Positions 1-25,564 of a stretch of 25,564 nt of DNA are shown one piece after another (the first letter of the stretch is position 1; each line of letters starts with the position of its first letter). The notes under the pieces were generated by a model, which did not search any database, was not told the DNA's origin, and saw nothing but the letters and a program-made list of their open reading frames with translations. Source of the DNA: a virus. The stretch spans positions 1 to 25,564 of IMG/VR virus record IMGVR_UViG_3300011113_000526. The stretch is one strand, 5' to 3'. A program made the position numbers and the translations under genes.

Positions 1-642
1 ACCGTCAGCAACGATCCCAATACCGAATGCTTCGGCTGTCTGTGCACACTCTAATACCGCTGATAGTTGTGGATAGCCCACGCCTGCCACTCGCCGGGTC
101 AGACACATCGATCCCGAACCGATTCCCACCTTTACGAGATCGACTCCAACCTTTGACAATTCCTCGACCCCCTCTGGGGTCACGACATTCCCTGCAATCA
201 AAATAGACTTCGGCCATTTTTCTCTAACCTTTCTGGTAAAATTATGAAATTCAGTCATGTAGCCATTTGCCACATCAACACAAACAAACGTAGGATCTTT
301 GATATCTGCGCTGTCAACAAACAACTTACTTTCAGAATCTAGACCAAGAGTAAGTGAAACGTATTTTTCCTTATCGGGATTTGAAGAAACAAAACTTGAA
401 TAATAATCTCCACCTTTTCGGAGGCAGGTTACTATTTTGTATTCAGAAAGCACAAGCGCCATCTTATGAGTACCAACCGTTGACATATTTGCTGCCATGA
501 TCGGCACACCAGACCATTCAGTTTTGTTTTTAAAGGTTTTGGTAACTTCAAGAGAAACATCTTTTCTTGACTTTACACTGCTAGTATTCGGGACAATAAG
601 CACGTCAGAGTAATCTAGTTTTGGTTCAAAATTTACAATCAT
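1..642 (-). CDS. guaC: GMP reductase (partial, C-terminus beyond left edge)
   Basis: Reading the minus strand from ATG 642 gives 214 residues that stay open to the window edge. The enzyme converts GMP to IMP with NADPH in purine salvage. It aligns end to end in my memory with E. coli GuaC: an N-terminal K-L-x-x-x-D-V-L-I block (residues 8-16), ANMSTVGT (51-58), FVCVDVANGY (119-128), AGNVVT (150-155), the catalytic-loop motif GIGSGSMCLTR (173-183) with nucleophile Cys180, and GVGYPQLSAV (187-196). There is no CBS-domain insertion, and the VANGY and GYPQLSAV forms favour GMP reductase over IMP dehydrogenase. An in-frame ATG at 660 is a less likely start, since 642 matches the GuaC N-terminus exactly; neither has a good Shine-Dalgarno. 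In a phage this is an auxiliary nucleotide-metabolism gene. The downstream part of the visible gene (bases 1-190) is much richer in G+C than the rest. Confidence 0.9.
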   Translation of the reverse strand, partial: MIVNFEPKLDYSDVLIVPNTSSVKSRKDVSLEVTKTFKNKTEWSGVPIMAANMSTVGTHKMALVLSEYKIVTCLRKGGDYYSSFVSSNPDKEKYVSLTLGLDSESKLFVDSADIKDPTFVCVDVANGYMTEFHNFTRKVREKWPKSILIAGNVVTPEGVEELSKVGVDLVKVGIGSGSMCLTRRVAGVGYPQLSAVLECAQTAEAFGIGIVADG

Positions 643-650
643 TGCAGATA

Positions 651-678
651 ATATTACCATCTACTAACGATTGGTCAA
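651..678 (-). promoter_or_regulatory. possible sigma70-type promoter for guaC
   Basis: On the minus strand TTGACC (678-673) and TAATAT (656-651) are separated by 16 bases, and a transcript would begin close to the ATG at 642. It sits in the 39-base gap after the 59-residue gene. The match is good but AT-rich DNA gives such pairs by chance; guaC could equally be read through from the late promoter at 867-874. Confidence 0.4.
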
Positions 679-13528: not shown

Positions 13529-14083
13529 ATGACACATTCATTAAACAGTTTTAAAAATGCATTCAGCGGCGGAACTAGGGCAAATAGATTCATAGTCATA
13601 CCGAATTTTCCTTCGTTAGAGGGATTAAATTCGTCTGGTTTTTCTAATTTACAAAATAAATGCAAATTTACTGTTACCTCTGCGTCATTACCTAAAGTTG
13701 ACATTGGTGTAATAGCCGTTCCATACAGAGGAAGAATGGCATACTATGCTGGAGATAGACAATATTCTGTATGGCCAATAAAAGTTTACGATGATAATGA
13801 CAGAACTCTTTGGAATGCATTTCATTTGTGGAAAGAGAGTTTAGACGGTCACATAACCCATTTAGTAAACAAAGGCAGCACAAGAGATCACAAAACATTA
13901 CAAACAACTTGGAGTGTTGAACAACTTCCAACAAATGGAACAGTAGCACACAGAAGAATAAATTTAATTCGGTGTTGGCCCAGTGAAATTGGTGGAATAA
14001 ATCTTGATATGGGATCTTCGGAATTCGTGTCATTTGACATGACTTTAACGTTTGACCACATAGAAATAGCAAGAGGATTATAA
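13529..14083 (+). CDS. 19: tail tube protein gp19
   Basis: 184 residues (T4: 163), one base after the gp18 stop, without a clear Shine-Dalgarno, so translation may be coupled. Tube-fold features: N-terminal LNSFKNAFSGGTRANRF, SASLPKVDIGVIAVPYRG (51-68, the loop after the first sheet), RMAYYAGDRQYSVWPIKVYDD, the helix RTLWNAFHLWKESLDGH and a final strand FDMTLTFDHIEI. It polymerises as hexameric rings inside the sheath. The next gene is a diverged copy. Confidence 0.93.
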   Translation: MTHSLNSFKNAFSGGTRANRFIVIPNFPSLEGLNSSGFSNLQNKCKFTVTSASLPKVDIGVIAVPYRGRMAYYAGDRQYSVWPIKVYDDNDRTLWNAFHLWKESLDGHITHLVNKGSTRDHKTLQTTWSVEQLPTNGTVAHRRINLIRCWPSEIGGINLDMGSSEFVSFDMTLTFDHIEIARGL

Positions 14084-14086
14084 CAA

Positions 14087-14665
14087 ATGCCATTTTCAGC
14101 AAATGAATTAAATAATTTTAAAAACAATTTTGTTGGAGGCACCAGACAAAACAGATTTCGTGTTCTAGGTACATTCCCAAGCACAAGTTCTCAGGAAACT
14201 ACAAGTACAACAACTTCAACTAATTCTACTAATTTATCTGAATTTCACATAAGATCAACTTTAATACCAACGTTGCAAACAAGCACAGTTGCATATGATT
14301 TTTTTGGAAGAAAATTAAATTATCCAGGTGAAAAATTATATTCTACTTGGTCTGTTACTGTTTTAGATGATACTAATGCCAATAATCTTTGGACTAGATT
14401 TCATAACTGGCAAAATAATATTAATAATCATATGTCGAATCAAACACAATATGTACAAAACCATAGTGGTTACAAAACTAGATGGACAGTTCAGCATTTA
14501 GATTTAAATGGAAATAGTTTAAAAACATTTATTCTGGCCGGTCTTTGGCCAAGAACTGTAAATGAAATTTCATTTAGCCATTCAAGAACAAATGCGTTAA
14601 ATACTTTTAACGTAGTATTTGTTTATGACACTATCGAAATACCCGGAATAACACCAACTACATAA
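14087..14665 (+). CDS. second tail tube (gp19-type) protein
   Basis: 192 residues, with GAGGA nine bases before ATG 14087. It is a paralogue of the preceding gp19: both start with an LN-x-FKN-x-F-x-GGTR-x-NRF-x-V block ending in FPS, and share the Y-G loop (FFGRKLNYPGEKLYSTWSVTVLDD against the gp19 form MAYYAGDRQYSVWPIKVYDD), the W-x-x-F-H-x-W helix and the final strand ending in DTIEI / DHIEI. It carries a Thr/Ser-rich insertion near residues 34-49 absent from gp19. It may be a tube cap, terminator or alternative ring; it could also replace gp54. The relationship is seen in the sequence; the role is not known. Confidence 0.85.
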   Translation: MPFSANELNNFKNNFVGGTRQNRFRVLGTFPSTSSQETTSTTTSTNSTNLSEFHIRSTLIPTLQTSTVAYDFFGRKLNYPGEKLYSTWSVTVLDDTNANNLWTRFHNWQNNINNHMSNQTQYVQNHSGYKTRWTVQHLDLNGNSLKTFILAGLWPRTVNEISFSHSRTNALNTFNVVFVYDTIEIPGITPTT

Positions 14666-14675
14666 AGGAAATGTG

Positions 14676-16238
14676 ATGGAAATCGATGTTTTTGGATTTG
14701 AGTTTGGAAAAAGAAAATTAGAAAAAGAACAAGAAACAGTAGATCTGGTTCGTAAAAATTTTGCTGCACCCGAAATATTTGATGGTACAGTAACAGTAGA
14801 AGCCGGTGGTTTTTTTGGAACCGCTTTAGATTATGCTGCAAATCTTCGTGATGAAGGCGCATCAATTATTCAATATAGAAATATGTCTATATACCCTGAA
14901 GTAGACAATGCCATTGATGAAATCACAAATGCTGCAATGGTTCCCGGAACAGAAAGAAAAACAGTAAAAATAGACTTAAAAAATGTTCCAATTTCAGATC
15001 CAATAAAAACCAAAATTTATAAAGAATTTGAAAATATTTTACAACTTTTAGATTTTAATAGCAAATCTTACGAAATTTTTAGACGCTGGTATATTGATTC
15101 TAGATTATTTTACAACATCATAATTGATAAAGACCAGCCAACGCAAGGAATTCAAGAAATAATTCCTTTAGATCCTTTAAAGATTAAAAAAATAAGAAAA
15201 GTAGAAAAACAGCCAGAAAAACTTGGAAAAACCCAAGTAACTTTGATCAAAAAAATTGAAGAATATTATCTGTATACAAATACAGACAAAGAAACATATA
15301 TGCTTACTGGGCCCGGGGGACTACACCTTTCTCTGGATAGTGTCGTTTATGTTCCTTCTGGAATAGTAGATTTAAATACAAAACGTGTATTGGGTTACCT
15401 GCACAAAGCAATTAGACCTCTTAACATGTTACGACAACTTGAAGACGCTCTTCTTGTTTATCGTGTAGCAAGAGCTCCGGAAAGAAGAGTATTTTACGTT
15501 GACGTAGGTCAGCTTCCGAAACAAAAAGCCGAACAATATGTTCGTGATATGATGAGCCGATTCCGTACAAGACTGATTTACAATCAAGCCACGGGAGAAG
15601 TGAGAGATGAAAGAAACCATTTATCTGTCTTAGAAGATTATTGGATTCCAAGAAGAGAAGGTTCAAACGGAACACAAATTACCACACTTCCGGGTGGTAA
15701 TGCGATGTCTCAAATAGAAGACGTTGATTACTTTAAAAAGAAATTATACTCATCCCTTAATGTACCATTGAGCAGATTGATGGCCGATCAAACAGGATTT
15801 AACATGGGTAGATCTGTGGAAATAACAAGAGAAGAAGTTAAATTCTACAAATTTATAGAAAGAATTAGACACCAGTTTTCAAAACTTTTTATGGATTTCA
15901 TGAGAGTCCAATTAATTTTGAAAGGTGTGATGACAGAAGAAGATTGGAACGTTTTAAAAAATCAAATTAAAATTGTATTCAACACAGACAATTATTTCTG
16001 GGATTTAAAAGAAGCAGAAATATTATCAGAAAGAATTAAAGTACTTTCATTTGTAGATCCATATGTCGGCAAATACTATTCTTCAGATTATATCAGAAGA
16101 AATATTTTGAGACAAACAGAAGAAGAAATGTTGCAAATGGATAAAGAAATGGCTGTAGACAGGCAGAGAATTCAAGCAGAGCAAATGGCTTTGATGGCCC
16201 AACAACAGGCACAAGAACAGCAGGGTGGACAACAATGA
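14676..16238 (+). CDS. 20: portal vertex protein gp20
   Basis: 520 residues (T4: 524). ATG 14676 is preferred over the adjacent in-frame GTG 14673 because AAGGA lies six to seven bases upstream. The N-terminal DYAANLRDEGASIIQYRNMS and YPEVDNAIDEITNAAMV blocks are hallmarks of T4-like portals, followed by LPGGNAMSQIEDVDYFKKKL and LNVPLSRLMADQTGFNMGRS, conserved in the crown/stem region. The C-terminus is Gln- and Ala-rich. The dodecameric portal is the prohead initiator, DNA channel and terminase dock. Confidence 0.96.
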   Translation: MEIDVFGFEFGKRKLEKEQETVDLVRKNFAAPEIFDGTVTVEAGGFFGTALDYAANLRDEGASIIQYRNMSIYPEVDNAIDEITNAAMVPGTERKTVKIDLKNVPISDPIKTKIYKEFENILQLLDFNSKSYEIFRRWYIDSRLFYNIIIDKDQPTQGIQEIIPLDPLKIKKIRKVEKQPEKLGKTQVTLIKKIEEYYLYTNTDKETYMLTGPGGLHLSLDSVVYVPSGIVDLNTKRVLGYLHKAIRPLNMLRQLEDALLVYRVARAPERRVFYVDVGQLPKQKAEQYVRDMMSRFRTRLIYNQATGEVRDERNHLSVLEDYWIPRREGSNGTQITTLPGGNAMSQIEDVDYFKKKLYSSLNVPLSRLMADQTGFNMGRSVEITREEVKFYKFIERIRHQFSKLFMDFMRVQLILKGVMTEEDWNVLKNQIKIVFNTDNYFWDLKEAEILSERIKVLSFVDPYVGKYYSSDYIRRNILRQTEEEMLQMDKEMAVDRQRIQAEQMALMAQQQAQEQQGGQQ

Positions 16239-16663
16239 AAACCATACAAAATTCAATATTAAAAAATGGAATTAAAGATTTAGCAAAAAACAATGAAACT
16301 TCATTTAAAAAATCTTTAATCGATGTTTTATCTTTTAAATTGAATGAAAGTTTAGAAAATACAGAAAATATTACTAAAAACCGTCTTCTTGAAAAAAAGG
16401 AAGAAATTACAAAAATTACTTCCGAAATAAAAATATTTTTAGAATTTTTAAACAATTATAATGCAGAAACGGTTACAAAAATTAAATTAAAAAATGACAG
16501 CATTCTAAATATTACAGAAGAAAATATAAAAAACATAAAAGCACTATTTGACCAGCTGAAACCAGAAAATAGACAATTAATGGCAGAAACAATTTTTAAT
16601 GACACTGGAACATTTCAGCAACATCTAGAATTTTATGAAAAAACAAAGGCTATAAACAAATGA
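16235..16663 (+). CDS. small prohead-core-like protein (unknown)
   Basis: 142 residues, ATGA overlap with gp20. It is strongly helical and Lys/Asn/Glu-rich with no membrane segment. Position between portal and protease is that of T4 gp67 and gp68, the minor prohead core proteins, and the segment SFKKSLIDVLSFKLNESLEN (24-43) resembles the F-K-x-x-L-x-x-K-L helix of such core proteins. The coding DNA is extremely AT-rich (one 60-base stretch is 17% G+C). Context supports a core role; the sequence alone does not prove it. Confidence 0.6.
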   Translation: MKTIQNSILKNGIKDLAKNNETSFKKSLIDVLSFKLNESLENTENITKNRLLEKKEEITKITSEIKIFLEFLNNYNAETVTKIKLKNDSILNITEENIKNIKALFDQLKPENRQLMAETIFNDTGTFQQHLEFYEKTKAINK

Positions 16664-17031
16664 AACCACAAATTCAAGAATTAATAAAAAATATGATTGA
16701 CGAAAACGCAGTAGATTTTAAAAATAATACTGCAAAAGTTCTTTATACAAAAATTAATAAAAAATTAGAAGAACAATACAAAGAAACTGCTAAAAAAGTT
16801 TTTTCTATTCAAGAAGAGAAAGTCAAAATTGAAGACTTAGATAGAGTTGAGGGGCATGAACACAAGGCAGATGGAATTGGTGCCAGATATGTCGGAACTG
16901 GGACTGATGGTAAAAAATATAGTTTTTGGCACAGGGGCGGTCCTAATACACCTGACTCCGGTTTAATGACTCTCCCTCACATTGAAATAGATGATCCGAG
17001 AATTCAAGATATTGAAGTTCTTGATCAATAA
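16660..17031 (+). CDS. small prohead-core-like protein (unknown, second)
   Basis: 123 residues, ATGA overlap with the previous gene. The N-terminal half is a charged helix with DFKNNTAKVLYTKINKKLEE (19-38), similar in kind to the previous protein and to gp67/68-type core helices. The C-terminal half is different: it contains GARYVGTGTDGKKYSFWHRG, a small Gly/Tyr-rich, strand-like domain, and ends in acidic residues. The fold of this half is not recognised. It probably acts in the prohead core. Confidence 0.6.
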   Translation: MKPQIQELIKNMIDENAVDFKNNTAKVLYTKINKKLEEQYKETAKKVFSIQEEKVKIEDLDRVEGHEHKADGIGARYVGTGTDGKKYSFWHRGGPNTPDSGLMTLPHIEIDDPRIQDIEVLDQ

Positions 17032-17056: not shown

Positions 17057-17701
17057 ATGAAACTAATAACAGAACTAACTGAAGATATAAAATACGTAAA
17101 AGAAAATGTAGGCAATGGAGATCGAAATTACTTCATTGAAGGCATTTTTATGCAAGCTGACCAAAAAAATAGAAATGGTAGAATTTACCCACAACCAATA
17201 TTGGTCAAAGAATGCAAAAGATATATTAATGAATATGTCGATAAAGGGCGCGCTCTTGGTGAACTAAATCACCCAACCGGCCCAACAGTTAATCTTGACC
17301 GCGTTTCACACATTGTAAAGGAACTCTATGAAGATGGTAAAAATGTTTATGGTAAAGCTAAAGTCCTTGATACTCCAATGGGCAAAATCGTTAAAAACCT
17401 TATTGACGAAGGTGCTCAACTTGGTGTCTCTACCCGTGGTATGGGTTCTCTCAAAAGCAAAAATGGTTATCAAGAAGTTCAAGAAGACTTCATGTTAGCA
17501 GCAATTGACATTGTTGCCGATCCCTCTGCACCAAATGCTTTTGTCAACGGAATCATGGAAGGCAGAGAATGGATGTTGGACAATGGAATGTGGACTGTCA
17601 GAGAATACGAGCAAGCTAAAAAAATTATTAAAACAAGTTCAAAAAGAAATTTAAATGAAAATGTTTTGAAAGTTTTTAAAAATTACTTTAAAAACCTCTA
17701 A
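17057..17701 (+). CDS. 21: prohead core protease gp21
   Basis: 214 residues (T4: 212). The catalytic His is His72 in GELNHPTGP (68-76) and the nucleophile Ser125 in GVSTRG (123-128), in the context of the T4 prohead protease family; IDIVADPSAPNAF (150-162) is the third conserved block. The enzyme cleaves prohead proteins after Glu at (L/I)-x-E sites, and itself. Its own N-terminus reads MKLITELTED, with candidate site LTE9. No good Shine-Dalgarno is visible before ATG 17057. Confidence 0.95.
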   Translation: MKLITELTEDIKYVKENVGNGDRNYFIEGIFMQADQKNRNGRIYPQPILVKECKRYINEYVDKGRALGELNHPTGPTVNLDRVSHIVKELYEDGKNVYGKAKVLDTPMGKIVKNLIDEGAQLGVSTRGMGSLKSKNGYQEVQEDFMLAAIDIVADPSAPNAFVNGIMEGREWMLDNGMWTVREYEQAKKIIKTSSKRNLNENVLKVFKNYFKNL

Positions 17702-17709
17702 GGACTAAA

Positions 17710-18561
17710 ATGATCACTATTTCAGAAAACACAAAAAATTACATAAAAACTGTTTTGTCTGAAGCAGGTGGTCCAAGAGGAAAACCACATTTTTCTCCAA
17801 AACCTGGAATGCCCGGAACAGCCACCTCGCCAGCAGGTTTTACTGGAACAGCAGATCCGGGAACTGCGGGTGGCATGTATTCACCCCACTTATCTGATAG
17901 TTCAAAAGAAATTATATATAAAAGACAAGATGCTAAAGCTAAAGGCCAAGTTGGCATGGATATAGACCGCGACATTTTAATGGGAAGAACATCAATAGGT
18001 AATGCCCAAGATACCATGGATCACATCGCGCAAATGTCTCAAGGTTATGCAACTGCAGAATATTTGGATTCGGTTATGCCTGCCGCAGCTAAAGCGGCAA
18101 TGGCCCTGGACCTTTTAGGAAAGAGTCCGGGCGTGAAGGGTAAACAGCTTAAATCTTCCTCCACAACAATTGATTTAACACAATATGGCGTCGATGCAAA
18201 CACAGCAAAAGTTGCTAAAGATTTTTTAAATCCTAGCTCGGCTTCTGCTTCTCCTTCCGAAACACAAACAGCACCCAAACCCACAGGAGCCCCTTCTTCT
18301 GCAAGTTCACCACAACAAAAAGCAGCAGCAGCAGAAGAAAGAGCAGCAAAAGATAAAAAAGACCAATTTGTTTCTCTTACAAAAAAATTTGCAGCAAATT
18401 TAGGAAGTTTAGACCCATTCAATCCACTCTTGGGAATAAAACTCGGATATGAACTTCTTGGTGGTAAGGAAATTCTCAAAAGAACCCGAGAACTTGGTGC
18501 TGCACAAAGTGCTGGTGTACAATCATCTATGGGTCACCCATCAGCAATTGGAAGATTTTAA
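17710..18561 (+). CDS. candidate processed internal head protein (unknown)
   Basis: 283 residues, AAGGA five bases before ATG 17710, between protease and scaffold genes. I do not recognise it. The N-terminus has a short helical stretch ending in VLSE-AGG (residues 15-21): Leu16-Ser-Glu18 followed by Ala is a good gp21-type cleavage site, and the preceding 18 residues resemble in size and pattern the capsid-targeting peptides of T4 internal proteins. Then come a Gly/Pro-rich part (19-60), a middle domain with Ala-rich helices (110-137), a Ser/Pro/Thr/Ala linker (174-207) and a basic Lys-rich helix (about 203-228). No membrane segment is visible. A packaged or core protein is an inference from the site and the location. 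Confidence 0.7.
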   Translation: MITISENTKNYIKTVLSEAGGPRGKPHFSPKPGMPGTATSPAGFTGTADPGTAGGMYSPHLSDSSKEIIYKRQDAKAKGQVGMDIDRDILMGRTSIGNAQDTMDHIAQMSQGYATAEYLDSVMPAAAKAAMALDLLGKSPGVKGKQLKSSSTTIDLTQYGVDANTAKVAKDFLNPSSASASPSETQTAPKPTGAPSSASSPQQKAAAAEERAAKDKKDQFVSLTKKFAANLGSLDPFNPLLGIKLGYELLGGKEILKRTRELGAAQSAGVQSSMGHPSAIGRF

Positions 18562-18606: not shown

Positions 18607-19659
18607 ATGAAAACTAACAAAAAAATAAACCTTTCAGAAGCCGCTGCACAAGTCATGGGTGTTGTACCCATGGATGGCACCGGTAAGTCAGATTCAGATG
18701 GAATGAGAGGCGGTTCGATGACTGCTTCACCCATCGTGTCAGGAGTTCCGGCAACAACACCAGTTCCACCTCCAATTGTTCCAAGTTCTATGGCCAAATC
18801 AATGGGTTCCATGAAGGTTGCTCCTGCACCAGTTGCATCAAAGCCACAAGAAGAATCCGAAGAAACTGAAGAAGAAACCGAAGAAGAGGAAATGGAAGAA
18901 TCAACCACACCAGATGAAACAAAAGAAGAAATTGCAGAAGCATTCCGATCTGCCATTTCATCTCTGCTTGGTGAAAGCGTTGATGAATCTTCTTTCACTC
19001 AAATTGAGGCTATTTTTGAAGCTGCAGTTCAAGATAGAGTTCAAAAAGAAGTTTCAACAACAGTTGCACAATTGGACGAGGGTGCAAAAGAATATCTTGA
19101 AACAGTCACAAACACACTAGTTGAAAAAGTTGATGACTACTTGGATTATGTTGTTGAAGAATGGGTAAAAGAAAATGCAATTGCAATTGAACAGGGTATC
19201 AAGACAACAATTGCAGAAAACTTCATCACCGGTCTCAAAGAACTTTTTGAAAATCACTACATTGATGTTCCTGCAGAGAAGTACAATGTTCTTGATGATC
19301 TATACGCACAAAATAGAGAACTTCAAGAAAAACTCAATGCCACAATCAATGAATCAATTCAATTGAAAAAAGATGTTGCATTGACTGAATGCGCCGGAAT
19401 CTTTGTTGCTGAAACAAGAGATCTTGCAGACACTCAAGTTGCTAAACTTCAAAGTTTGATGGAAAACATCAATTTTACAAGTCCAGAAGAATACAGAGAA
19501 AAATTGCTTGCTATTAAGAATAATTACGTGAATGGTAAGCGTCCCGCTCCAACACAAACAATTACTGAAGAGCAAACATTTTCAAAATCCGTAAACACAC
19601 CAGGAACATTGGTCGAGAGCTACGCCAATGTTATTGGTCGTCTGAATAAAAAGCTCTAA
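18607..19659 (+). CDS. 22: prohead scaffold (major core) protein gp22
   Basis: 350 residues from ATG 18607; an in-frame TTG at 18601 is a possible start but sits only four bases after AAGGA. The central and C-terminal parts match T4 gp22 well: VEKVDDYLDYVVEEWVKENA, then a FITGLKELFENHYIDVP block and a coiled coil LYAQNRELQEKLNATINESI. A Pro-rich N-terminal third and a run of Glu residues (about 80-105) precede it. gp22 forms the inner core around which gp23 assembles and is then degraded by gp21; the N-terminus reads NLSE-AAA with a candidate site after Glu11. Confidence 0.95.
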   Translation: MKTNKKINLSEAAAQVMGVVPMDGTGKSDSDGMRGGSMTASPIVSGVPATTPVPPPIVPSSMAKSMGSMKVAPAPVASKPQEESEETEEETEEEEMEESTTPDETKEEIAEAFRSAISSLLGESVDESSFTQIEAIFEAAVQDRVQKEVSTTVAQLDEGAKEYLETVTNTLVEKVDDYLDYVVEEWVKENAIAIEQGIKTTIAENFITGLKELFENHYIDVPAEKYNVLDDLYAQNRELQEKLNATINESIQLKKDVALTECAGIFVAETRDLADTQVAKLQSLMENINFTSPEEYREKLLAIKNNYVNGKRPAPTQTITEEQTFSKSVNTPGTLVESYANVIGRLNKKL

Positions 19660-19706: not shown

Positions 19707-21140
19707 ATGCAATTTCAAGAAAATACACCATATGACATTTTGACCGAAAAGTGGAATCCAGTGCTCAATCACGAAGCTCTGCCCACAATCGGTGACGACT
19801 ATCGTAAGAAGGTAACTGCTGTTCTTTTGGAAAACCAAGAACAAGCTCTTCGCACACAACACCTCACAGAAGACATGACTTCTGGTAACCTTGGTGGACC
19901 AGCAACATCAACTGGATATAACACCGGAAATATTTCTGGTTATGATCCTGTTTTGATCAGCTTGGTTCGCCGCGCTATGCCAAACTTGATGGCCTACGAC
20001 GTCTGCGGCGTTCAGCCAATGACTGCTCCAACAGGTCTCATTTTTGCAATGCGTTCAAACTATGGAAACGCCGATGGTGGTAAGCTTTATACTGACAGCA
20101 CATACGCTGAAGCTATGTTCCAAGAACCACAAGCAAACTTTGGCGGCTCTGGTTACACCTTGGGTGGAACATTTGCTGCAAGCAAGGGCTTGTCTGCTGG
20201 TTGGAACTATGGAAGCAGCTTTGGTACTTGGACAAACTATTCTGCAACTGGACCAGGAAGTTTCAATGCTCTCCGTGGTATTCTTACCAACTTTGGTGAA
20301 GGCTTGGGTGCATTAACTAATCAAGATCCATATAAGAAGTTCAACCAAATGGCCTTCTCAATTGATCGTGTTGCAGTACAAGCTCGTACACGCGCTCTGT
20401 CCAGCAACTACACTGTTGAATTGGCACAAGACCTCAAGGCCGTTCACGGACTTGATGCTGAATCAGAACTCGCAAATCTTCTCAGCACAGAAATTCTTGC
20501 TGAAATCAACCGCGAGATCGTTCGTACAATTTACTTTGTCGCCAAAGCTGGTAGCCAACAATGGGATCTCACAACAGCCGGTCAATACAATCTTGAACTC
20601 GATTCAGATGGTCGTTGGTCAGCTGAAAGATTCCGTGGCCTTAGCTTCCAAATTGAGCGTGAATGCAATGCAATCGCCAAGGAAACCCGCCGTGGTAAGG
20701 GCAACTTTATCATCTGCGATAGCGATACAGCCGCAGCTCTCGCAATGTCTGGATTCATGAGCCTCAGCCCAGGAATCGCACCACAGCTAAATGCTGATGA
20801 CACACAAAGCACATTTGCTGGTGTACTGAATGGTAAAGTTCGCGTCTACATCGACCCATACGCCCCACTCGGTGCAAACTTCTTCTGCACAGGTTATAAG
20901 GGTGAATCGGCTTATGATGCAGGCTTGTTCTACTGCCCATACGTCCCACTGCAAATGGTCCGTGCCGTTGATCCTAACACTTTCCAACCACGTATTGCTT
21001 TCAAGACCCGCTATGGTGTCGTAGCTAACCCCTACGTCCTCAACAGCAACAATGTTCCAGATGGTGAAACATTGACAACTGGTTTGAACCAATACTACCG
21101 CTTGACAAGAGTTGCAAATCTTCACGGCAACAAGATCTAA
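19707..21140 (+). CDS. 23: major capsid protein gp23
   Basis: 477 residues (T4: 521), with AGGAG upstream of ATG 19707. Strong match to T4 gp23: LTEKWNPVLNHEALPTI (12-28), then LVRRAMPNLMAYDVCGVQPM and TGLIFAMRS (T4: VRRAIPNLIAFDICGVQPM), and the A-domain ALSSNYTVELAQDLKAVHGL plus AEINREIVRTI. HLTE55 followed by Asp is the candidate gp21 maturation site, comparable to FLTE65 in T4. Codon choice is unlike the neighbours: two 60-base samples are 50-52% G+C, with many CGT, CGC, GGT, AAC and TTC codons, as expected for very high expression. Confidence 0.97.
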   Translation: MQFQENTPYDILTEKWNPVLNHEALPTIGDDYRKKVTAVLLENQEQALRTQHLTEDMTSGNLGGPATSTGYNTGNISGYDPVLISLVRRAMPNLMAYDVCGVQPMTAPTGLIFAMRSNYGNADGGKLYTDSTYAEAMFQEPQANFGGSGYTLGGTFAASKGLSAGWNYGSSFGTWTNYSATGPGSFNALRGILTNFGEGLGALTNQDPYKKFNQMAFSIDRVAVQARTRALSSNYTVELAQDLKAVHGLDAESELANLLSTEILAEINREIVRTIYFVAKAGSQQWDLTTAGQYNLELDSDGRWSAERFRGLSFQIERECNAIAKETRRGKGNFIICDSDTAAALAMSGFMSLSPGIAPQLNADDTQSTFAGVLNGKVRVYIDPYAPLGANFFCTGYKGESAYDAGLFYCPYVPLQMVRAVDPNTFQPRIAFKTRYGVVANPYVLNSNNVPDGETLTTGLNQYYRLTRVANLHGNKI

Positions 21141-21214: not shown

Positions 21215-21751
21215 ATGACCACCAATGCTTGCTCTGGAAATACAAATCCACTATACAACAATTATTTTACTTTAAAATTTAACAGAGGAACATCTCAGTT
21301 TGAACTTCTTTGCCAAAGAGTAAATTTACCAGGAATTAATGTTCCAGATCTTGCTCAACCAACAACATTGGGAACAACAATTCCTGTTCCAAGTTTAGTG
21401 GCTGCGTTTGAACCTTTGTCAGTAGATTTTATTGTTGACGAAAATTTGGATAACTGGAAAAGTATATATTCTTGGATTAGAAATATTTCAAATATTAAAG
21501 ATGACACTTCTAACAATTTAAATTACCAAAAATGGCATATAACTGCAACTCTTGGAATATATGCAGGTCCATATACAATAAATGGTTGCAATTCCGGAAC
21601 AACGATCAAATTTCAAAATGTTGTTCCAATTTACTTGAGTGGTTTAAATTTTCAATCAGACAACACCGATGCAGTAATTCAAAAAGCATCTTGTAAATTT
21701 AGATATTCTTACTATACCATAAATCCTGATGCACCATCAATTTTATCTTAA
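21215..21751 (+). CDS. 3: tail terminator, tube-fold protein (gp3-like)
   Basis: 178 residues, close to T4 gp3 (176). It has tube-fold features: FTLKFNRGTSQFELLCQRVN (17-36) and LPGINVPDLAQPTTLGT, in which the P-G-I loop and the switch to a Thr-Pro-rich strand are typical, then FEPLSVDFIVDENLDNWKSI with a Trp-containing helix YSWIRNIS. Location after gp23 and before uvsW agrees with gp3 in related phages as I recall. gp3 ends the tube and binds gp15. It could instead be another gp19 or gp54-type member. Its stop overlaps the stop of the convergent minus-strand gene. Confidence 0.65.
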   Translation: MTTNACSGNTNPLYNNYFTLKFNRGTSQFELLCQRVNLPGINVPDLAQPTTLGTTIPVPSLVAAFEPLSVDFIVDENLDNWKSIYSWIRNISNIKDDTSNNLNYQKWHITATLGIYAGPYTINGCNSGTTIKFQNVVPIYLSGLNFQSDNTDAVIQKASCKFRYSYYTINPDAPSILS

Positions 21752-24448: not shown

Positions 24449-24468
24449 TATTAAAAGGTCTATTGGCG

Positions 24469-25104
24469 ATGAAAATTGATTTACGTGAAATTTTAGTTGT
24501 ATGGATAAATTTAGATTCTGCAACAAAAAATGCAGAAGAGATGACAGCAAGACTAAAAGACAAAGGATTTAAAAATACTTTTCGTAAATCTGCTAGAATA
24601 ATTCCAGCCCCACCCGGAACAATGGCATCCAATTCACATTATGTTGGATGCGCCCAATCACACATTGATATATTAGATGATTCTCAATATTCTACACCAC
24701 TTCTAATTCTTGAAGATGATGCAGAATTTTCTGATTCATTTAATCCAGTAATTGACGTGCCCGACGATTCAGATGGATTGTATCTTGGTATATCAACAGG
24801 AAACCAAGGGTATCAAACAAAAAGATACAACCAAGAATATTTAAGAATTGGTGGTATACTTGCTACACATGCAATTTTGTATGTAACAGAAAATTTTAAA
24901 CAAAATATGTCCGCTGTCGCCAAACACTGTATAAACAATTTGCAACAGCCATGGGATATGGGGGCTTCTGTTTTACAGTATCATTTTAGAGTATATACAC
25001 CAAATAAACCAATGTTTTACCAATCTGATAACAAAGAATCTGCCAATAAATGGCAATTTTTTACGGATGGTATTCTTGAAGATAAAAATTCTCAATACTT
25101 ATGA
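24469..25104 (+). CDS. glycosyltransferase, family 25-like
   Basis: 211 residues from ATG 24469; the in-frame TTG at 24463 is an unlikely start. N-terminal ILVVWINLDSATKNAEEMTA fits the I-N-L-D-x(5)-R/N-x-E-M start of family 25 (LPS galactosyl-type) transferases, then VGCAQSHIDILDD and LLILEDDAEFSD, the conserved G-C-x-x-S-H and E-D-D metal/sugar-nucleotide motifs. No signal peptide or membrane segment, so a cytoplasmic enzyme using a sugar nucleotide is expected. The acceptor (host surface glycan, phage DNA or protein) cannot be told. The consensus sigma70 promoter implies expression early in infection. It overlaps the next glycosyltransferase. Confidence 0.8.
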   Translation: MKIDLREILVVWINLDSATKNAEEMTARLKDKGFKNTFRKSARIIPAPPGTMASNSHYVGCAQSHIDILDDSQYSTPLLILEDDAEFSDSFNPVIDVPDDSDGLYLGISTGNQGYQTKRYNQEYLRIGGILATHAILYVTENFKQNMSAVAKHCINNLQQPWDMGASVLQYHFRVYTPNKPMFYQSDNKESANKWQFFTDGILEDKNSQYL

Positions 25105-25564
25105 TAACATTTAATAGTTTGGGACATTACGGTAGATTCGGAAACCAAATGTTTCAGTATGCCACTTTATATTCAATTGCAAAAACAAAAAAATACGAAT
25201 TTGGTGTTCCATACAATAACAGATCAAAAAATGAATATATGGATTTTTGTTTACCTGATTGTTTTCCAAACTTAAGTGCAAAAAATTCTTCAAATTATCA
25301 TACGAAATATAAAGCTCAGGAAAAAATATTTGAATACAATGCAGGAATATTTGGAATTTTAGATGATACTGATATTTGTGGGTATTTTCAAAGTGAAAAA
25401 TATTTTGTAGATTACAAAAATGGATTATTAAAAGAATTTGATTTTGCAGAACATATAAAATTAAAAGCTGGAGATATAAGATCTCTCACATCAAATGAAG
25501 CAATTTCTGTGCACATAAGACTGGGCGATTTTGTATCACAACAACACAATCATCCTGTATGCTC
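25101..25564 (+). CDS. alpha-1,2-fucosyltransferase-like, family GT11 (partial, cut by right edge)
   Basis: ATG 25101 overlaps the preceding stop as ATGA, and 154 complete codons follow before the window ends. Two GT11 motifs are plain: GRFGNQMFQYA at residues 11-21 (the G-G-L/F-G-N-Q-M-F-Q-Y-A start) and VHIRLGDFV near the visible end (the H-x-R-R-G-D-Y GDP-binding motif with Leu instead of the second Arg). GT11 enzymes transfer fucose from GDP-fucose. The pair with the GT25-like gene suggests a two-step modification of one glycan, but the acceptor is unknown. The C-terminal part lies outside. Confidence 0.88.
   Translation, partial: MITFNSLGHYGRFGNQMFQYATLYSIAKTKKYEFGVPYNNRSKNEYMDFCLPDCFPNLSAKNSSNYHTKYKAQEKIFEYNAGIFGILDDTDICGYFQSEKYFVDYKNGLLKEFDFAEHIKLKAGDIRSLTSNEAISVHIRLGDFVSQQHNHPVC

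Follow-up and report, generated by a model that had tools for sequence, protein, structure and literature searches.

The window, by which we mean the whole stretch of DNA analysed, is a 25.6 kb (25,564 nt) IMG/VR fragment of a T4-like phage (IMGVR_UViG_3300011113_000526). Its head block, on the plus strand, contains in order gp20, a 142 aa ORF, a 123 aa ORF (o123), gp21, a 283 aa ORF, gp22 and gp23. Pfam and PHROGs identify the gp20 portal protein (14676-16238), the gp21 prohead protease of the S77 family (17057-17701), the T4-type scaffold gp22 (18607-19659) and the major capsid protein gp23 (19707-21140). In T4 the order is gp20, gp67, gp68, gp21, gp22, gp23; thus, the core-like 142 aa ORF (16235-16663) and o123 (16660-17031) stand where T4 has gp67 and gp68, and the 283 aa ORF (17710-18561) is an extra gene.

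The extra gene begins with ATG and is preceded by a Shine-Dalgarno-like AAGGA (17700-17704) that overlaps the gp21 stop codon. An earlier note on this DNA had pointed to residues 16-18 of the product, LSE followed by Ala-Gly-Gly, as a gp21 cleavage site. The protein starts with MITISENTKNYIKTVLSE, followed by the proposed cut and then AGG, and so LSE18 (17755-17763), with AGGPRG after it, does have the form of a gp21 site. The sites quoted for comparison are also exact: LSE11 then AAA in gp22, LTE9 then DIK in gp21 and LTE55 then DMT in gp23, in genes that Pfam and PHROGs confirm. Residues 1-18 (17710-17763) would be a cleavable targeting propeptide, with a helix predicted at residues 6-19 (pLDDT 89); within it, ISE6 (17719-17727), followed by NTK, is a possible site of an extra cut. 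The proposed mature protein (residues 19-283; 17764-18558) has a pI of 9.4 and contains no [LI]xE. It includes a conserved middle segment with a DILMG motif and helices (residues 86-137; 17965-18120) and a conserved C-terminal segment (residues 216-283; 18355-18558; LDPFNPLLGIKLGYELLGGKE...SSMGHPSAIGRF). The Ser/Pro/Ala linker described in the earlier note is present at about residues 172-205, as is the Ala/Lys/Glu helix after it (residues 201-232).

In T4, the protease gp21 cleaves its substrates after L/I-X-E, core proteins at repeated sites and virion proteins only at N-terminal propeptides, which in the internal proteins are 10-19 residues long (PMC9026906). The 283 aa ORF has two [LI]xE near its start (ISE6 and LSE18) and none in the other 265 residues. 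Taken singly, the LSE site is weak statistically and could be due to chance: two sites in 17 shuffled residues have P = 0.04, and the later absence has P = 0.39. Seven of 29 window proteins have [LI]xE at residues 8-30 (the 283 aa ORF, o123, gp21, gp22, gp23, gp14 and UvsY), four of which (o123, gp21, gp22 and gp23) are head-block neighbours of the 283 aa ORF.

Relatives were obtained by a gp21 scan, using the best 80 contigs (gp21 identity 79-86%), which are from uncultured T4-like phages. All 71 of these that hold both gp21 and gp22, the window included, have an ORF of 180-365 aa between the two genes, and at a clustering level of 70% these ORFs reduce to 41 representatives. BLAST chaining, corrected for composition and filtered for low complexity, connects 40 of the 41 through their last 110 residues at E < 1e-3; thus, the gap holds one family rather than serving as a slot for unrelated genes. 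Profile comparison of family subgroups with hhalign gives weak scores (E 0.005 and 0.02, and 0.14 for a third). No gene is annotated between gp21 and gp22 in T4, Synechococcus phage S-PM2, Prochlorococcus phage Syn1, Pelagibacter phage Mosig or Stenotrophomonas phage DLP6. Among deposited phage records, identity reaches at most 57% for gp21 and about 47% for the portal, and so the clade of the window phage appears to be uncultured.

The rapid variation between strains that had been predicted for this protein is real but concentrated in two linkers. Mean pairwise identity is 26.6% in the gap family, compared with 83% for gp21, 79.5% for gp23 and 61% for gp22 (61-83% over gp20-gp23). In the close group, identity to the window is 47% in the propeptide, 13% in linker 1, 33% in the middle segment, 12% in linker 2 and 57% at the C-terminus; the difference between residues 1-18 and the linker that adjoins them supports the proposed propeptide. 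Most close pairs have dN/dS of about 0.1-0.5, and thus the gene is real and under purifying selection.

Across the 41 representatives, the first 50 residues contain 73 [LI]xE sites, compared with 20.8 +/- 4.1 in shuffled sequences, and the residues after position 50 contain 10, compared with 46.7 +/- 6.1 expected. Forty representatives have at least one site in the first 50 residues, and the remaining one (L004) has FKE. Among control motifs counted after residue 50, [LI]xD (57 vs 58) and [LI]E (46 vs 47) are at expectation, Ex[LI] (71 vs 47) and [LI]xK (118 vs 95) are above it, and [LI]xxE is mildly scarce (30 vs 46), so that part of the avoidance of [LI]xE may reflect a helix pattern. Sites at the start only are found in 33 of 41 family members and in five of 102 other proteins (150 aa or longer) encoded at these loci (Fisher p ~1e-19, a probability inflated by shared ancestry). 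The shuffle-based probabilities are inflated as well, since the motif is short and the relatives are not independent. The same pattern is repeated in all 14 non-identical members found later, six of which are <60% identical to the first set. Despite the relatedness of the sequences, the direction of the enrichment and avoidance and the controls agree. The pI of the mature part is above pH 7 in 40 of the 41 relatives.

The neighbouring genes and T4 itself can be used for comparison, and the counts on the neighbours come out as expected from their biology. [LI]xE is enriched throughout gp22 (z +24.6), gp21 (z +29) and the 142 aa protein (z +9.8), while gp23 is enriched in its first 50 residues (z +10.4) and depleted after residue 60 (z -3.4). 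The first 50 residues of gp20 are not enriched (z -3.9). As a separate observation, [LI]xE is avoided in this portal segment (14676-14825) among the relatives (1 vs 14 expected), as though this part of the portal were shielded from cleavage by gp21. The NHP and STRG motifs of gp21, intact in the window, are so in all 41 gp21 sequences. In T4, each of the internal proteins IPI, IPII and IPIII carries a single site, at residue 19, 10 and 10, respectively, and their mature parts carry none (0 vs 2.7 expected); the scaffold gp22 shows the opposite pattern, with 16 sites against 5.7 expected. A Glu to Asp change blocks the processing of IPIII.

Structure prediction, which had been proposed as a check, was informative for one part of the protein: the N-terminal helix is confident, but the remainder has no confident fold. 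The AlphaFold model of the window protein (pTM 0.27) is confident for residues 1-20 only, and in that of a shorter relative (pTM 0.17) the N-terminal helix alone is confident; thus, no fold backs a mature function. Foldseek against viral models gives no match with E below 0.5. Searches of Pfam, PHROGs, PADLOC, PDB sequences, plasmids and phage records return no matches to the family (for PHROGs, none of 45 relatives matched), and the PADLOC result is a weak test for an anti-defence family, that database being mainly of defence systems. In the phage records there is no similarity to the T4 internal proteins at E up to 1, and the T4 internal-protein start MKTYQEFIAE is absent. A membrane-channel role was considered and dropped: the mean maximum hydrophobicity of the Gly/Ala stretches is 1.10, compared with 1.07-1.22 in the soluble gp20, gp21 and gp23.

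Most likely, then, the product of the 283 aa ORF is an internal protein of the head of a T4-like water virus, which gp21 trims at the N-terminus and which stays with the DNA. Capsid targeting and gp21 cleavage after Glu18, as the earlier note envisaged, and retention in the head are inferred, with good support, from the family-wide conservation of the site, its avoidance in the mature part, the comparison with T4 IPI, IPII and IPIII and the basic character of the mature part. Residues 1-18, as an amphipathic helix, would anchor the precursor next to gp22 in the prohead core. Once active, gp21 would cut after LSE18 and perhaps also after ISE6, to judge from the motif. The basic remainder of 265 residues, free of gp21 sites, would outlast digestion of the core, remain with the packaged DNA inside the head and probably exit through the portal with the genome, ejection being the weakest of these steps. 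The conserved middle and C-terminal segments may carry a function common to the clade, with the disordered linkers between them free to vary. We give this proposal as a whole (docking by the N-terminal helix, cleavage by gp21, packing of the basic remainder with DNA and probable ejection) a probability of roughly 75%.

A close known parallel in architecture is with T4 IPI, IPII and IPIII, which like the 283 aa ORF have a short N-terminal propeptide ending in (I/L)xE, no further gp21 site and a basic mature part. The 18-residue propeptide is inside the 10-19 residue range of the T4 internal proteins (PMC9026906), and, as befits a protein of that kind, the gene lies beside a T4-type prohead protease and scaffold (Pfam S77 and T4_CASP). 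There are also differences. No sequence similarity to IPI-III was found; the T4 internal-protein genes lie at 65.4-66.4 and 73.6-73.9 kb, a long way from the head block at 101-108 kb, and are dispensable and poorly conserved among T4 relatives, whereas the 283 aa gene has one fixed place, between gp21 and gp22, and is universal in its clade.

Other explanations can be weighed against this one. That the LSE site is coincidental and the protein no protease substrate at all would fit the weak statistics of the pattern within a single protein, but runs against the family-wide enrichment and avoidance and their out-of-sample repeat, and we consider it highly improbable. A role like that of T4 gp67 or gp68, in which an accessory protein of the core or scaffold would help to shape the prohead and then be digested and lost, is suggested by the position of the gene in the core block beside gp22 and by the flexible, helical, low-complexity character of the protein. 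T4 gp67 and gp68 share the block next to gp21 with the 283 aa ORF, but they precede gp21, gp67 is cut into fragments, and the window has its own 142 and 123 aa proteins in those places. Digested core proteins are rich in [LI]xE throughout (gp22 z +25, 142 aa protein z +10), and the 283 aa family avoids it; the window protein does not have the many gp21 sites along its chain that would mark a digested core protein of the gp22 or gp67 kind. A core role is thus improbable.

The two further possibilities concern what a packaged protein would do. One is that the protein, although cut at its N-terminus, lines the head or forms a minor part of the shell and stays fixed to the capsid interior, a variant of the internal head protein favoured above. 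Phage P1 DarA is likewise an internal head protein with its N-terminus cut by the prohead protease, and it contacts the inner capsid surface (PMC12810830). The universal presence of the gene at a single locus, its conserved C-terminus and purifying selection are in keeping with such a role, although divergence this fast relative to gp23 (27% vs 80%) would be unusual for a regular shell contact. DarA is much larger (69 kDa) and belongs to a phage without a separate scaffold, and the family shows no similarity to DarA or any P1 record in the phage collection. A fixed inner-head role like that of DarA may be regarded as a fair rival, possible rather than probable. The other is injection as an effector against host restriction or another defence, as with T4 IPI, for which the shared precursor architecture of IPI-III and the rapid divergence of the family can be cited. 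On the other side, PADLOC, Pfam, PHROGs and the PDB give no matches, the gene is in every relative examined at the same locus and never swapped for an unrelated protein, the C-terminal segment is conserved, and dN/dS for the gene is 0.1-0.5. A counter-defence role is somewhat disfavoured by these observations, and we consider it unlikely.

The proposal defines an unnamed protein family from a widespread group of uncultured T4-like phages and would place this family in the virion interior. Sites at the start only, combined with avoidance in the mature part, make a simple test for packaged proteins that can be applied to any phage with a known prohead protease motif, and the proteins so found are candidates for early takeover, counter-defence and protein delivery tags.

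The neighbouring o123 represents a second family. Its conserved 50 aa module mostly stands alone (52-67 aa), but in 11 cases, including the window, it carries a variable tail that can reach about 220 aa, and in 10 of these there is an [LI]xE at the module-tail junction (residues 49-55; IQE52 in the window). One relative (L006) has two tailed modules in tandem with different tails. The module with variable, often Pro-rich tails can be seen at 16660-17031 of the window and in relatives L006 (2780-4146), L034 (1048-1800) and L044 (4741-5550), and resembles a modular carrier of packaged proteins. There is no avoidance of [LI]xE in the tails (7 vs 6.5 expected), and so retention is not indicated for them. 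A bolder reading, which we put forward tentatively as doubtful, is that the 283 aa family is an obligatory ejected protein of a large uncultured T4-like clade, its C-terminal segment doing a clade-wide job at DNA entry or takeover, and that the 50-residue module of o123 carries interchangeable payloads. In three phages, the beginning of the 142 aa neighbour also gives a weak hit with the module profile (E 2e-6 to 2e-3), a resemblance that suggests that the two core-like genes (16235-16663 and 16660-17031) may be old duplicates.

Elsewhere in the window, an IMP dehydrogenase/GMP reductase gene (1-660, minus strand; Pfam E 3e-39) adjoins tail genes and is likely a host-derived metabolic gene. 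Three genes are tail-tube-like, two in tandem before the portal (13529-14083 and 14087-14665) and one after gp23 (21215-21751), and the right end (24463-25562) has two glycosyltransferase-like genes, one of family 25 (a weak match) and one of family 11.
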